Below are positions 26,233-37,084 of a stretch of DNA of 64,000 bases, piece after piece. Both the position numbers and the translations under genes were made by a program. The notes below the pieces were generated by a model that was given only the letters and a program-made list of their open reading frames with translations, had not been told where the DNA came from and did no database searches. Source of the DNA: Deltaproteobacteria bacterium (GTDB taxonomy: Bacteria > Desulfobacterota > Desulfobacteria > Desulfobacterales > Desulfosarcinaceae); the NCBI GenBank assembly GCA_021824175.1, contig JAKALP010000012.1:1-64000 (forward strand), read 5' to 3'. Within the stretch, counting starts at the first letter, position 1; each line of letters opens with the position of its first letter.

Positions 26233-26511
26233 ATGATTTGTCAAACCATTCGTAAGGGCAGAGAGTGCGCGTTCATGAGTGCCAAGGGCTGCACCTATAA
26301 TGGCGGGCTTTGCCATGAAATCGTCGAGGCTTGCCAAGGATGTAACCGTGCCACCCAAGTCGAGTCCGGTTGGTACTGTGGTTCTTGCCCAGAGCCAGCT
26401 GTAAAGTGGAAAAATGGCAACTGTAATTTGGCCACCCATATCGTGGCCGCGCCGGTCGCGCCCAAAACCAAGGTCAACCCCTTGAAAGCCTCCAAACGCG
26501 CCATGCAATAG
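26233..26511 (+). CDS. PxxKW family Cys-rich protein
   Basis: This 92-residue protein has 10 cysteines. It begins MICQTIRKGRECAFMSAKGC, has the central CQGCNRA pair and the name-giving PAVKW at about residues 55-59, then a Lys/Ala/Pro-rich tail. Families with this P-x-x-K-W signature are known mainly from Desulfobacterota and have no known function; cysteine spacing suggests zinc or iron-sulfur binding. GGGAG lies eight bases before the start. It is flanked by terminators on both sides, so it is a single-gene unit. Confidence 0.85.
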   Translation: MICQTIRKGRECAFMSAKGCTYNGGLCHEIVEACQGCNRATQVESGWYCGSCPEPAVKWKNGNCNLATHIVAAPVAPKTKVNPLKASKRAMQ

Positions 26512-30097: not shown

Positions 30098-30838
30098 TCA
30101 ATATTTGACTTGAACCAGGCATAACCCATGGGCCGGTGCAGTGGCGCTGGCCTGGCAACGTTGCCGAGAGGTCAGGATGGCCTCGATATTCTCGGGCGGC
30201 ATGAGGCCCTTGCCTATGTCCACCAAAGTCCCTACGATATTGCGTACCATATACCGCAGAAAACCTTCGGCCTCGATTTCAAACACAATGCGCCCTTGTG
30301 AATCTCGGTCCAGCTCCGCGCGCATCACATGGCGCACTGTGCTGGATCGCGGGCTTCCGGCGGCTTCAAAGGCTTTGAAGTCCCTTTGTCCGACGACATG
30401 GGCCGCGGCCGCGGACATGGCAGCCACATTCAGGGGCGCCCGCACCCACCACTCGTACTGCCGGCCGATGGCGGTTGGCAGCGGCCCCGAGCGGATAGTG
30501 TAACGGTAGGATTTGCTTCTCACATTGTAGCGCGCGTGAAAACCATGGTCCACCTCCAGGCACTCCCGGATCACGATATCCTCAGGGAGTAAACTGTTGA
30601 GCCCTTTTTGGAATGCATCGGGGGTAATGGCGGTATCGCAAAGGAAATTGGCGGTCTGACCCAGGGCATGTACGCCGGCATCCGTGCGGCCGGATCCAAT
30701 CAAGGTGATGGGCTGGCGCGTCATGGACCGGAGCACGGTTTCAATCTCCTGTTGGATGGAGCGGCCATTGGGCTGACGTTGCCAGCCACAATAGTGGGTG
30801 CCGTCATATTCCATGGTGAGCTTAAAATTTTTTATCAT
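30098..30838 (-). CDS. truA: tRNA pseudouridine(38-40) synthase
   Basis: This 246-residue enzyme isomerises uridines 38-40 in the tRNA anticodon stem. The opening MIKNFKLTMEYDGTHYCGWQRQPNGRSIQ and the catalytic loop GSGRTDAGVHALGQ (Asp53) are diagnostic. RSKSYRY and FLRYMVRNIVGTLVDIGKG match the C-terminal half. The length is usual for bacterial TruA. The start at 30838 lies 68 bases after the stop of the candidate selenoprotein gene on the same strand, so the two may be cotranscribed. Confidence 0.95.
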   Translation of the reverse strand: MIKNFKLTMEYDGTHYCGWQRQPNGRSIQQEIETVLRSMTRQPITLIGSGRTDAGVHALGQTANFLCDTAITPDAFQKGLNSLLPEDIVIRECLEVDHGFHARYNVRSKSYRYTIRSGPLPTAIGRQYEWWVRAPLNVAAMSAAAAHVVGQRDFKAFEAAGSPRSSTVRHVMRAELDRDSQGRIVFEIEAEGFLRYMVRNIVGTLVDIGKGLMPPENIEAILTSRQRCQASATAPAHGLCLVQVKY

Positions 30839-30906: not shown

Positions 30907-31095
30907 CTAAAAGCGATTGCATATCAGGCGGCCCAAAGCCGCCTCCGCGCGATCGTCCAGTTGGTCCAGCAAATCGGTCATTTCATAAATTTTGCCGCAG
31001 TCCCTGCAGCGCCATTGCACCTGCCGTCAGGAGCGGTGCTGGGCCAACGGTGTTTGACATTGCGGGCATTGAAACAAAGGGGATTCTAATCGCAT
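30907..31095 (-). CDS. small dual-CxxC selenoprotein candidate (in-frame TGA)
   Basis: From the ATG at 31095 (AAGG just upstream) this frame encodes 22 residues with CPQC at 10-13. It then meets TGA (31029-31027), and continues without another stop through RQVQWRCRDCGKIYEMTDL to TAG at 30907-30909. Read with selenocysteine at the TGA it is a 62-residue protein with two CxxC motifs and an acidic helical tail. I recall an annotated family of dual CxxC motif small (seleno)proteins with this C-terminal pattern; that recollection is unverified. A 7-bp hairpin in the expected SECIS position follows the TGA. A nonsense mutation is the main alternative. Confidence 0.65.
30994..31010 (-). promoter_or_regulatory. 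candidate bacterial SECIS hairpin
   Basis: Read on the minus strand, GCTGCAG-GGA-CTGCGGC forms seven base pairs (one G-U) closed by a GGA loop. It begins 17 bases and its loop 24 bases after the in-frame TGA, inside the window known for bacterial SECIS elements, and the loop starts with G. The same bases encode the second CxxC motif, so chance pairing cannot be excluded. Confidence 0.5.
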
Positions 31096-31281: not shown

Positions 31282-32472
31282 GTGACCCACGCCATTCAAT
31301 GTCAAGGATTTCAAGCCGCCGGATTGGCCGCCGGAATCAAGAAGAAGGCCGGTCTTCTTGACTTGGGGCTGATCTATTCCCAGGTGCCGGCCAATGTGGC
31401 CGGCATGTTCACTCGCAATCGCGTCATGGCCGCGCCCGTGGTGCTTACCAAAGAGCGCGTGGCTGGTGGCACGGCCCGCTTGATCGTGGCCAATGCGGGT
31501 TGCGCCAACTGCTGCACCGGCGCCCAAGGAATGGCCCACGCCCTTCAGACCACGCGCTTGGCCGCCGAGGGGCTCAAGCTGGAAGAGTCCCAGGTGCTGA
31601 CAGCCTCCACTGGCGTTATCGGCGCTCCCTTGCCCTTGGATAAGATCCAAACCGCCATGCCCAAGCTGATCAGCCAGCTTCGGCCCGATGGGTTTGAGGA
31701 TTTTTCCCAAGCCATTATGACCACCGATACGGTCCCCAAGCTGATCCAGCGCCAGGGTGCGTTGGATGGTCGCCCTTTTACCATGCTGGCCGTGGCCAAG
31801 GGGGCTGGCATGATCCGGCCGGATCTGGCCACCATGTTTTGTTTTGTCTGTACTGATGCGGCCATCCCGACGCCGGTGTTGCAAACCATGTTGCGTCAGT
31901 CCGTGGACCGTACCTTGAATTGCATCACCATTGATGGCGATACCAGCACCAACGATACCGTACTGCTGCTGGCCAACGGCATGTCGGGCGCCGAAGTGCG
32001 CACCCAGGCCCATCAGTCGATTTTTCAAACTATTCTGGATGATCTGTTGATGGAGATCAGCCGGCGGCTGGTGAAGGACGGCGAAGGGGTCACCAAGCTG
32101 GTGGAGATCAAGGTGCAAGGCGCGCCATCGGATGCCGAAGCCTATCGCATCGCCGACACCGTGGCCCACTCGCCTTTGGTCAAGACCGCCTTTTTCGGTG
32201 AAGATGCCAACTGGGGGCGCATCATGGGGGCAGTGGGCCGAGCCGGTGTGGCCATTGATCCAGAACGCATCGATATCTTCTTTGAAGGCGTCCAGATGGT
32301 GCGCAATGGCGTGGGCTGCGGCTTGGATCAAGAAAAACAGGTGACCGCCGTGATGAAGCGGGCGGAATTCAGCGTCACCATCGATCTGCATCTGGGAGCG
32401 GGCCGGGCCTCCATGCTGACCTGTGATTACTCCATTGACTACATCAAGATCAATGCGGATTATCGGTCGTAG
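31282..32472 (+). CDS. argJ: bifunctional ornithine acetyltransferase/N-acetylglutamate synthase
   Basis: This 396-residue ArgJ protein moves the acetyl group from N-acetylornithine to glutamate in the cyclic arginine pathway. Motifs include [31 protein letters not shown] and [10 protein letters not shown]. The self-cleavage region is [17 protein letters not shown], with Thr184 as the likely nucleophile exposed by A183/T184 cleavage; [13 protein letters not shown] follows. The start is GTG at 31282 with GGAGG five bases upstream. Whether it also uses acetyl-CoA cannot be told from sequence. No other arginine gene is nearby. Confidence 0.95.
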
Positions 32473-34356: not shown

Positions 34357-34608
34357 ATGATCGTCGAAACGCCCAAACTGCTGCCCGAGAACGTCAGTAT
34401 GCCATGCTACGCCTGCGGGAATGAATCCGCCACTCATTTATGCAAATACAAGATGGGCGAACTTTCCATCCAGGTGTGCCTGTGCAAAGCATGTATGCAA
34501 ATGGATACCGCGCAGCTACTCAAAAACACCATTGGCATCCAGGAAGTGAGTTTCCCTCAAGTGGATCGCTATTTGCCTAGCAAAAAAGCGGTAGCGGTTG
34601 CCGGTTGA
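34357..34608 (+). CDS. small Cys-rich protein with two CxxC pairs
   Basis: This 83-residue protein has MPCYACGNESATHLCKYKMG and VCLCKACMQM, giving a C-x2-C...C...C-x-C-x2-C set likely to bind zinc. The rest is helical and polar. AAAGGAAAC lies just upstream of the ATG. It is the last chromosomal gene before the integrated element. No named family was recognised. Confidence 0.65.
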   Translation: MIVETPKLLPENVSMPCYACGNESATHLCKYKMGELSIQVCLCKACMQMDTAQLLKNTIGIQEVSFPQVDRYLPSKKAVAVAG

Positions 34609-35030: not shown

Positions 35031-36341
35031 GTGGCAAGGCAAAAATTAACAGCCGGCAGAGTGCGAGACTTTGAATGTCCACATGGAACCGCTCAGGCCT
35101 TCTTGTGGGATTCGGAAGTTCCGGGCCTGGGTGTAAGGGCCACCATGGGGGCCAAGGTCTATATTTTCCAGGGGCGGCTGGTCGGCAAGACCATCCGCGT
35201 GAAGATCGGTGACGTTCGCACCTGGGCCATTGATTCAACCGATACGGCCAAGCCTGGGGCGCGACAAGAGGCCCGGCGACTGCAAGCCATGATCGATCAA
35301 GGCATTGATCCTCGTATTGAAAAAAAAGAGCGCATGGCCGAACAGGAGGCCAAGAGGGTTGAAGTCCAGCGACAGGAAGCCACCCTGGGGGAGGTCTGGC
35401 CGATTTATATTGAAGCCCATGAGCATCGATGGAGCCCCCGCCATCTTGCCGACCATGCGCGCATTGCGCAGGCAGGGGGCGAGAAGGTTAAACGCGGTAA
35501 GGGCAAGACCAGGCCCGGTCCTTTGGCAGCGCTGTTGGGCCTGAAATTGAGTGAGTTGACAACCGTGAGGGTCAAGGCCTGGGCCAATGAGGAAGCAGGC
35601 AAGCGCGGGACGCAGACCCGTATAGCCTTTGACGCCTTGCGGGCTTTCCTCAATTGGTGTGACGATCAACCAGGGTACAAGGGCCTTGCTTCCATCGAGG
35701 CGTGTTCAAGCCGGATCAAGCGGGAAGTCTTGCCCAGGAAGCGGGCCAAAGATGATTGCCTTCAACGTGAGCAGTTGCCGGCTTGGTTCAAAGCGGTCCG
35801 TGGCCTTTATAACCCTGTCATTGCCGCCTACCTTCAATCCCTGCTTTTAACCGGCGCCCGGCGTGAAGAATTGACCCATTTGAAATGGGCCGATGTTGAC
35901 TTCAAATGGAACAGCATGACCATTCACGATAAGGTGGAGGGTGAGCGAACTATCCCCCTGACGCCGTATGTTGCCTCTCTTCTTTCCCAATTGCCACGAC
36001 GCAATCAATGGGTGTTCTCAAGTCCAAGGGCCGAAACCGGCCGCCTTCAAGAGCCCCGCATACCTCATAACCGGGCCTTGGCCGTTGCGGGCATTGAGGG
36101 GCTAACCCTTCATGGCCTTCGGCGATCCTTCGGAACCCTCAGCGAATGGGTGGAAGTCCCGGCCGGGGTGGTCGCTCAGATTATGGGCCACAAACCATCG
36201 GCAACGGCAGAGAAGCACTACCGGCGGCGCCCGCTTGACCTTCTGCGCATGTGGCACGTCAAGATTGAAGCTTGGATGCTCGAACAGGCCGGCATTGCGC
36301 AACCGGAAGCGGACGATACCGGAATTCGTTTGGTAAAGTAG
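35031..36341 (+). CDS. int: tyrosine-type integrase (DUF4102/P4-like)
   Basis: This 436-residue recombinase carries an N-terminal arm-binding domain of the DUF4102 type (LTAGRVRDFECPHGTAQAFLWDSEVPGLGVR). A central SAM-like domain (about residues 110-210) is followed by a catalytic domain with Arg in LTGARREELTHLKW (about 277), HGLRRSF (about 360) and Tyr in ATAEKHYRRR (about 397). The start is GTG at 35031 directly after AGGGGGCAAT. Being next to attL and inside identical att repeats, it is the enzyme for this element. P4-type integrases commonly use tRNA genes. Confidence 0.95.
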   Translation: MARQKLTAGRVRDFECPHGTAQAFLWDSEVPGLGVRATMGAKVYIFQGRLVGKTIRVKIGDVRTWAIDSTDTAKPGARQEARRLQAMIDQGIDPRIEKKERMAEQEAKRVEVQRQEATLGEVWPIYIEAHEHRWSPRHLADHARIAQAGGEKVKRGKGKTRPGPLAALLGLKLSELTTVRVKAWANEEAGKRGTQTRIAFDALRAFLNWCDDQPGYKGLASIEACSSRIKREVLPRKRAKDDCLQREQLPAWFKAVRGLYNPVIAAYLQSLLLTGARREELTHLKWADVDFKWNSMTIHDKVEGERTIPLTPYVASLLSQLPRRNQWVFSSPRAETGRLQEPRIPHNRALAVAGIEGLTLHGLRRSFGTLSEWVEVPAGVVAQIMGHKPSATAEKHYRRRPLDLLRMWHVKIEAWMLEQAGIAQPEADDTGIRLVK

Positions 36342-36385
36342 GTTGATTCCAATCTTGATAATATACTAAAAATGGAATATTGTGC

Positions 36386-36661
36386 ATGTGGCAAGTGATC
36401 TTGAGCAGGAAGGCGAGAAAGCAGGTCGACGAGCTGCCCCGAATAGTGAAAGAAAATCTTTACGCTTTGCTTCGTGACATTGAAGAACATGGCCCAATTC
36501 GGGGTGACTGGCCAAATTATAGTAAACTGAAGCCCGGCCAACACCACTGCCACATTAAGAAGGGCAAGCCTTGTTATGTGGCCGTATGGGAAGAACGTGA
36601 CCGGACAATAAGGTTGATCGAGGTAATTTATGTTGGAACCCATGAAAAAGCACCATACTAA
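36386..36661 (+). CDS. RelE/HigB-type toxin
   Basis: This 91-residue protein has the RelE/ParE fold pattern: MWQVILSRKARKQVDELPRIVKENLYALLRDIEEHGP, the conserved WPNYSKLKPGQHHCHIKKGKPCYVAVWEERD strand segment, and a short C-terminal strand IEVIYVGTHEKAPY. Such toxins cleave mRNA at the ribosome. It precedes and overlaps its antitoxin gene by 32 bases, the HigBA order. The ATG at 36386 is chosen over a TTG two codons earlier because of GGAA eight bases upstream. Confidence 0.85.
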   Translation: MWQVILSRKARKQVDELPRIVKENLYALLRDIEEHGPIRGDWPNYSKLKPGQHHCHIKKGKPCYVAVWEERDRTIRLIEVIYVGTHEKAPY

Positions 36662-36983
36662 AACCATTGAACTTCACCTGCGCGGCCCGGCGGAAAACGC
36701 GGAAAAAGCTACGCAGATCCTTAAAAAGCTCGGTTTCGTGGACACCACGGACAGTGTGCCGTGGCGGGATGCTTTCCTGGAATTCACTGAAGAAGAAGGG
36801 CCGGCGGTCTGCCTGCGTGCCATGCGTCGTCGGGAAGGTCTGACCCAAAAGGAACTATCTGCCCGCGCCGACATTCCCCAGGCTCACATTTCATTGATGG
36901 AGCGAGGCAAGATGCCCATCGGTGTGACCCGAGCCCGGCGGCTTGGGAAGGCCCTGAATGCCGGTTACAAAATTTTTCTGTAA
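36630..36983 (+). CDS. XRE-family antitoxin (HigA-like)
   Basis: This 117-residue protein carries a C-terminal helix-turn-helix (about residues 60-112: LRAMRRREGLTQKELSARADIPQAHISLMERGKMPIGVTRARRLGKAL). The N-terminal 55 residues likely neutralise the toxin. GAGG six bases before the ATG at 36630 supports this start inside the toxin gene. Toxin-first order with overlap is typical of HigBA modules, which maintain mobile elements and may have anti-phage effects. Confidence 0.85.
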   Translation: MLEPMKKHHTKTIELHLRGPAENAEKATQILKKLGFVDTTDSVPWRDAFLEFTEEEGPAVCLRAMRRREGLTQKELSARADIPQAHISLMERGKMPIGVTRARRLGKALNAGYKIFL

Positions 36984-37084
36984 ATAGTTCGTAGTTCGGG
37001 GATAGGTGGACGCACCGAAAAGCCGGTATCCTGGCCGGCCTGCCCCGATCACCAAACCAGGAGGCGCGGCAGGAGGCGCTGAAT

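Follow-up and report, generated by a model that had tools for sequence, protein, structure and literature searches.

Here, we report that the minus strand at positions 30907-31095 of the window (the whole stretch of DNA analysed, 64,000 nucleotides) very probably carries a working gene for a selenoprotein of the NF041197 (OS_HP3) family, in a bacterium of the Desulfobacterales type, as judged from read-through translation, family match and comparison with relatives. The gene encodes 62 residues when its in-frame TGA is read through. Translation starts at an ATG whose first base is 31095, preceded at a distance of 4 nt by AAGG (31103-31100), the likely ribosome-binding site, and proceeds through 22 residues, including a CPQC at residues 10-13, to the TGA (31029-31027), which most likely encodes selenocysteine (Sec) at residue 23 and is aligned with Cys in some homologues. 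Another 39 residues follow, including a CRDC at residues 30-33, and the frame is closed by a TAG (30909-30907). A bacterial SECIS-type hairpin, GCUGCAG-GGA-CUGCGGC, with seven pairs and a GGA loop, occupies bases 17-33 after the TGA (31010-30994) and overlaps the codons of the second CxxC. The same-strand gene on the 3' side is truA (30098..30838, minus strand), and the divergent neighbor on the other side is argJ (31282..32472, plus strand); both are found next to the gene in relatives too. An earlier note on this DNA had proposed precisely this layout, i.e., both halves of the frame, the hairpin and the location upstream of truA, and all of its positions were recovered. The gene, its family, the Sec/Cys column, the hairpin and the decoding machinery described below are results of computation.

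The read-through translation matches the NCBIfam model NF041197.2 at 60.5 bits, above its cut-off of 40; the match covers 53/53 model positions and spans the TGA. A search of the whole genome (6.07 Mb) gave one NF041197 match only, this gene, at 51.7 bits and with 1 internal TGA, and the same search in control genomes gave matches in 0/14. NF041197 is the small dual-CxxC seleno/cysteine family to which the earlier note had likened the C-terminal pattern; its expectation that automatic annotation would leave this region blank is dated, as NCBIfam now has a model for exactly this family. OS_HP3 was reportedly the subject of a 2007 paper, and our literature search found no functional study of the NF041197/OS_HP3 family. 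OS_HP3 is equated with NF041197 and catalogued as a selenoprotein with the motif RxU in the accessible part of one report (PMC13188914), it appears as a family in a selenoprotein table (excerpt of PMC9312934), and the OS_HP3 of Desulfosarcina widdelii PP31 is given, in an excerpt on the deep-Sep test genomes, as the one known selenoprotein that the program failed to find (PMC12013277). Because OS_HP3 is already in print, the sequence reported here adds a member to a family whose status as a selenoprotein was on record. The present data support a gene that routine gene prediction would cut in two at the TGA.

To avoid circularity, we built a second profile from the 26 Cys members that have no stop (L097 excluded). 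Among 1,218 frames of the window with TGA read through, this frame was the sole significant match to the Cys-only profile (E 9.4e-16), the runner-up being at E 0.21. The piece after the TGA is recognized by itself (E 1.7e-9), and the piece before it scores weakly (E 0.1) because it is short. In 10 same-genus sequences, the variable sites after the TGA are distributed over codon positions 1/2/3 as 22/12/33 of 39; the median dN and dS of this part are 0.24 and 1.09, respectively, and dN is below dS in 38/38 usable pairs of 45 (10 of the 11 genus sequences, L138 being excluded as its sequence is cut off). By these substitution patterns, the downstream part is under purifying selection. The terminal stop is also TGA in 5/10 of the genus genes, so the internal TGA is treated unlike the terminal one. 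The in-frame stop could also mean that the gene is a decayed pseudogene, or that a Cys gene has acquired a stop by accident, and Cys forms of the protein do exist; however, the TGA is present in 11/11 genomes of the genus, the codons behind it are under purifying selection and the hairpin is conserved, which makes this explanation extremely improbable.

The phylum scan (395 genomes) produced matches at E<=0.001 in 112 genomes, 88 of them above the family cut-off: 61 with one in-frame TGA and 27 without a stop, the latter including one partial match. At the level of the taxonomic family, 27/30 genomes are above the cut-off, all 27 with the TGA, and the good-quality genomes have a match in 16/16. 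A search with the single protein picked out three assemblies that carry the label Desulfatitalea or Desulfobacteraceae, with identities of 49-64% (3/297 candidate stretches), in keeping with a host from the Desulfobacterales. The comparative set comprises 110 members (83 TGA and 27 Cys), some of them below the family cut-off; 8/90 phylum loci were dropped as they gave no match of at least 40 columns with the seed profile. The alignment (A1) holds 76 of the 110 members, the sequence of the window included, as 61 Sec and 15 Cys rows. Homologues align across the TGA with either Cys or TGA in that column, and C10, C13, C/U23, C30 and C33 are invariant in 76/76 rows. The selenoprotein proposed at this TGA in the earlier note is thereby supported by homologue alignment, besides the family match and the sel genes. 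Please note that there are also second-type relatives (L094-L098 and L139-L141), which differ at the C-terminus and are shorter there; most of them score below the family cut-off. Of the eight sequences read, seven have TGA and one (L097) has Cys. The second-type gene is often a second copy in genomes where the main family is also present, and these sequences may form a separate small selenoprotein subfamily.

Either truA or argJ, or both, were found in the flanks of 34/111 loci, the window's included (26 with both, 5 with truA only and 3 with argJ only), and their orientation is the same as in the window in all 34; their absence elsewhere says little because flank lengths differ. In many relatives, truA starts ~1 kb further downstream; in one such locus (L124), the read-through suggested an intervening gene that we take to be an AEC-type transporter. 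Flank clustering indicated that the neighbors differ in other clades, where they presumably include orotate phosphoribosyltransferase, malonyl-CoA-ACP transacylase and RecA. One may consider that the UGA is a true stop and that the 22-residue peptide is the product, e.g., a truA leader peptide, given that the frame ends 68 nt before the truA start on the same strand. Such a peptide is very improbable: the codons after the TGA evolve as protein, truA is displaced by about a kilobase in many relatives, and the gene is kept with other neighbors in other clades. We also considered the neighborhood as a clue to the function of the selenoprotein and rejected it, as no partner emerges and neighbors vary between clades; the context therefore favors vertical inheritance over a pathway. 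Elsewhere in the window, an integrase-like ORF (35031-36341) is followed by an int-alpA RNA (36995-37064), and the region 35031-37064 is probably an integrated element. There are also two short Cys-rich ORFs, at 26233-26511 and 34357-34608.

The hairpin was evaluated with a bacterial SECIS model given in the accessible part of PMC13188914 (loop 3-9 nt, stem 4-16 bp, spacing 16-37 nt, G in the first two loop bases, energy <=-7.5 kcal/mol), the limits being applied with our own implementation. With a stem of 7, a loop of 3 (GGA), a UGA-to-loop spacing of 23 nt and -9.1 kcal/mol, the hairpin falls within all of the published limits, in line with the position in the usual bacterial SECIS window that had been noted earlier. 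As a single sequence, it is not exceptional: 347/2000 synonymous recodings also yield a model-fitting hairpin, 92/2000 are at least as stable, and the fold stability compared with shuffles is unremarkable (z -0.62 and -0.48). Stability of the single hairpin was rejected as proof of a SECIS, being not significant against either shuffles or the synonymous control, and we therefore relied on conservation.

A perfect-stem, model-fitting hairpin of -7.5 kcal/mol or below is found in 47/83 TGA members versus 2/27 Cys members, and the median hairpin energies are -8.3 and -0.9 kcal/mol, respectively (the partial L093 was excluded from all SECIS counts). This strict test is missed by 36/83 TGA members; the hairpin of L086 reaches only -3.0 kcal/mol, and those of L131 and L132 only -5.8 kcal/mol at a different register. 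At the exact register of the window, standard pairs occupy 85.5% of the pair cells in the 83 TGA members versus 55% in the Cys members; in 1000 shuffles, which ignore relatedness, the value averaged 79.0% and never exceeded 81.4%, and sliding one stem side by 1-3 nt reduced the value to 51.8% or less in the TGA members. The first loop base is G in 78/83 TGA versus 15/27 Cys members, and the second is G or U in 78/83 versus 20/27. On this comparative evidence, most TGA members share a putative SECIS hairpin whose register is fixed, and the majority of Cys members lack it. The signature of the family, i.e., G as the first loop base in nearly all TGA members, could aid detection.

The genome has selA, selB, selC and selD, as the earlier note had suggested checking: selA (620 bits), a canonical selB (379 bits), a strong tRNA-Sec (73.3 bits, UCA anticodon) and two selD genes (L049 and L050). 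Each of the two selD genes has one in-frame TGA, and both are likely selenoproteins themselves. Over the phylum, 60/61 above-cut-off TGA genomes have a tRNA-Sec match (compared by eye); in one TGA genome of the scan (G232), tRNA-Sec was not found, and in four (G106, G148, G205 and G346), the matches are weak only and could be of the selC* type described below. This co-occurrence was rejected as strong evidence, and we regard it as weak, because 351/395 phylum genomes have a tRNA-Sec match. Many phylum genomes have two to four such matches at E<=1e-8, some of which may be selC*-type tRNAs. In the taxonomic family, a tRNA-Sec match is present in 25/30 genomes and a canonical one in 23/30; the five genomes in which no match was found are represented by assemblies that are 64-86% complete. 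In two genomes (G408, 88% complete, and G412, 95% complete), the sole true tRNA-Sec-like match is of the selC* type.

A cassette of a selC* tRNA-Cys, selB* and cysS* was reportedly presented by Mukai in 2017, and one with the same arrangement is encoded in the genome studied here (G000:C22:173696-176978; L002, L053 and L203). The cassette starts with a second tRNA-Sec-like gene (C22:173696-173781) that has a UCA anticodon and, by reading, a U before CCA (U73). Directly 3' of it is a second selB (640 aa, 32% identity to the first selB), and then comes a second cysS, whose 418 aa correspond to positions 2-414 of the 466 in the model; the canonical cysS copy has 462 aa, and a third cysS-like match is part of a 773-residue frame on C1. 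From its length and model coverage, we infer that the second cysS is without an anticodon-binding domain. Formate dehydrogenase-like and selD genes are located near the cassette. The contig of the cassette is separate from that of the window (the contamination estimate of the assembly is 3.44%), and the tetranucleotide correlation between a 19-kb stretch of the cassette contig and the window is 0.92. Such cassettes have been described in Desulfobacterales and are said to insert Cys at UGA (accessible part of PMC7609411), with a proposed service when selenium is scarce (excerpt of PMC9437257). By sequence, the order tRNA, selB and cysS matches that of the published selC*/selB*/cysS* cassette. 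An A1:U72 pair is described for the Desulfobacterales selC* (also in the accessible part of PMC7609411); by reading, the 1:72 pair of the selC* found here is an A-C mismatch, and that of the loci in G408 (L194) and G412 (L195) is A-U.

With this cassette in the same genome, the UGA of the NF041197 gene might be read as Sec or Cys. That it is read as Cys, always or when selenium is scarce, would be consistent with the UCA-anticodon tRNA, the second selB and the second cysS, with the Cys insertion at UGA that PMC7609411 and PMC9437257 ascribe to such cassettes in the parts available, and with Cys being natural in the column of residue 23; moreover, both G408 (L194) and G412 (L195) have the TGA form of the gene and a selC*-type tRNA as the sole tRNA-Sec-like gene, so that either the canonical tRNA-Sec is not captured in their assemblies or selC* decodes. 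Against this reading, a close selB* with its tRNA is seen in 2/29 other genomes of the taxonomic family (G412, 48% identity; G408, 47%); the overall count for a close selB* is 3/30 genomes, besides a 110-residue fragment in G397 (77%), versus 27/30 for the TGA gene. We did not see a cysS beside selB* in G408, where the next gene follows immediately, or in G412, where the gap holds no frame of at least 250 residues. In addition, the last 70 residues of selB* are 24% identical to those of canonical SelB, compared with 68% among the canonical ones (28/30 loci aligned); with this drift of the C-terminal region, the same hairpin may not be read. The A-C mismatch at 1:72 of its own selC* is a further point against a Cys reading, which we consider quite unlikely. 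A dual use of one UGA, i.e., Sec inserted by SelB and tRNA-Sec with selenium and Cys inserted by SelB*, selC* tRNA-Cys and CysRS* without it, is in our estimation unlikely as well, though a shade less so; if it is true, a single gene would give rise to two forms of the zinc-ribbon protein. That homologues with Cys occur naturally suggests that position 23 tolerates either residue. As it co-occurs with a Cys-inserting UGA cassette, this short gene lends itself well to testing dual decoding.

Returning to the preferred reading, a selenoprotein gene, SelB with Sec-tRNA-Sec would bind the hairpin 17-33 nt after the UGA, and insertion of Sec at residue 23 would yield the 62-residue protein. The AlphaFold2 model (mean pLDDT 82.9, pTM 0.65) has strands at 16-21 and 26-30 and helices at 39-45 and 48-55; residue 23 falls in the turn of the hairpin that these strands form. 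Sequence and fold comparisons point weakly to zinc ribbons: 2jrp was matched over the first 23 positions (E 4.6e-5), PF07191 (Zn_ribbon_6) scored 19.6 bits, below the Pfam gathering score of 25, and the best match of a PDB fold search was ZifS 8yoz (E 0.022, 9.3 Å rmsd). Insertion of Sec in the cell, zinc binding, redox chemistry and a partner are what we infer from these data. The CxxC pairs (C10, C13, C30 and C33) are most likely the ligands of a single zinc ion, and Sec23 would be located in the turn of the zinc ribbon close to a conserved Arg/Lys (R21) and often to another (R24), both of which would keep the selenolate reactive. The position two before residue 23 is R or K in 55/61 Sec rows and R in 15/15 Cys rows, and the position after residue 23 is R or K in 49/61 Sec rows and R in 7/15 Cys rows. 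From the motif, the AlphaFold2 model and the weak zinc-ribbon matches, we tentatively picture a ribbon with one zinc ion in which Sec is exposed and would serve in redox or nucleophilic chemistry, with a probability somewhat short of even. Such a protein would most likely be a small adaptor that works by thiol/selenol redox chemistry or as a nucleophile.

Toward the C-terminus, E51 is conserved at 90% or more in the 76-row alignment, D or N is present near the end in 61/61 Sec rows, and R61 is present in 59/61 Sec versus 8/15 Cys rows; the D/N-R-hydrophobic end may dock on a partner. C59, present in 41/61 Sec and 8/15 Cys rows, was considered as a required resolving cysteine and rejected since it is not conserved.

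Compared with known systems, the protein is closest to NF041197 itself (CxxC_Se_CxxC, "dual CXXC motif small (seleno)protein"), with which it shares the full-model match, the RxU motif (here HRSU), the flanking CxxC pairs and the Sec/Cys exchange, and we saw no essential difference. The double zinc ribbon or YfgJ-like proteins (PF07191, 2jrp and 2jne; ZifS 8yoz) resemble it in their CxxC knuckles and beta hairpin, with weak similarity in sequence and fold; unlike them, the protein of the window has room for one ribbon only and carries an invariant Sec/Cys in the hairpin turn. The selC*/selB*/cysS* cassette is matched in the same genome by a tRNA, a second selB and a shortened cysS in the described order, but it is a system separate from the NF041197 gene.
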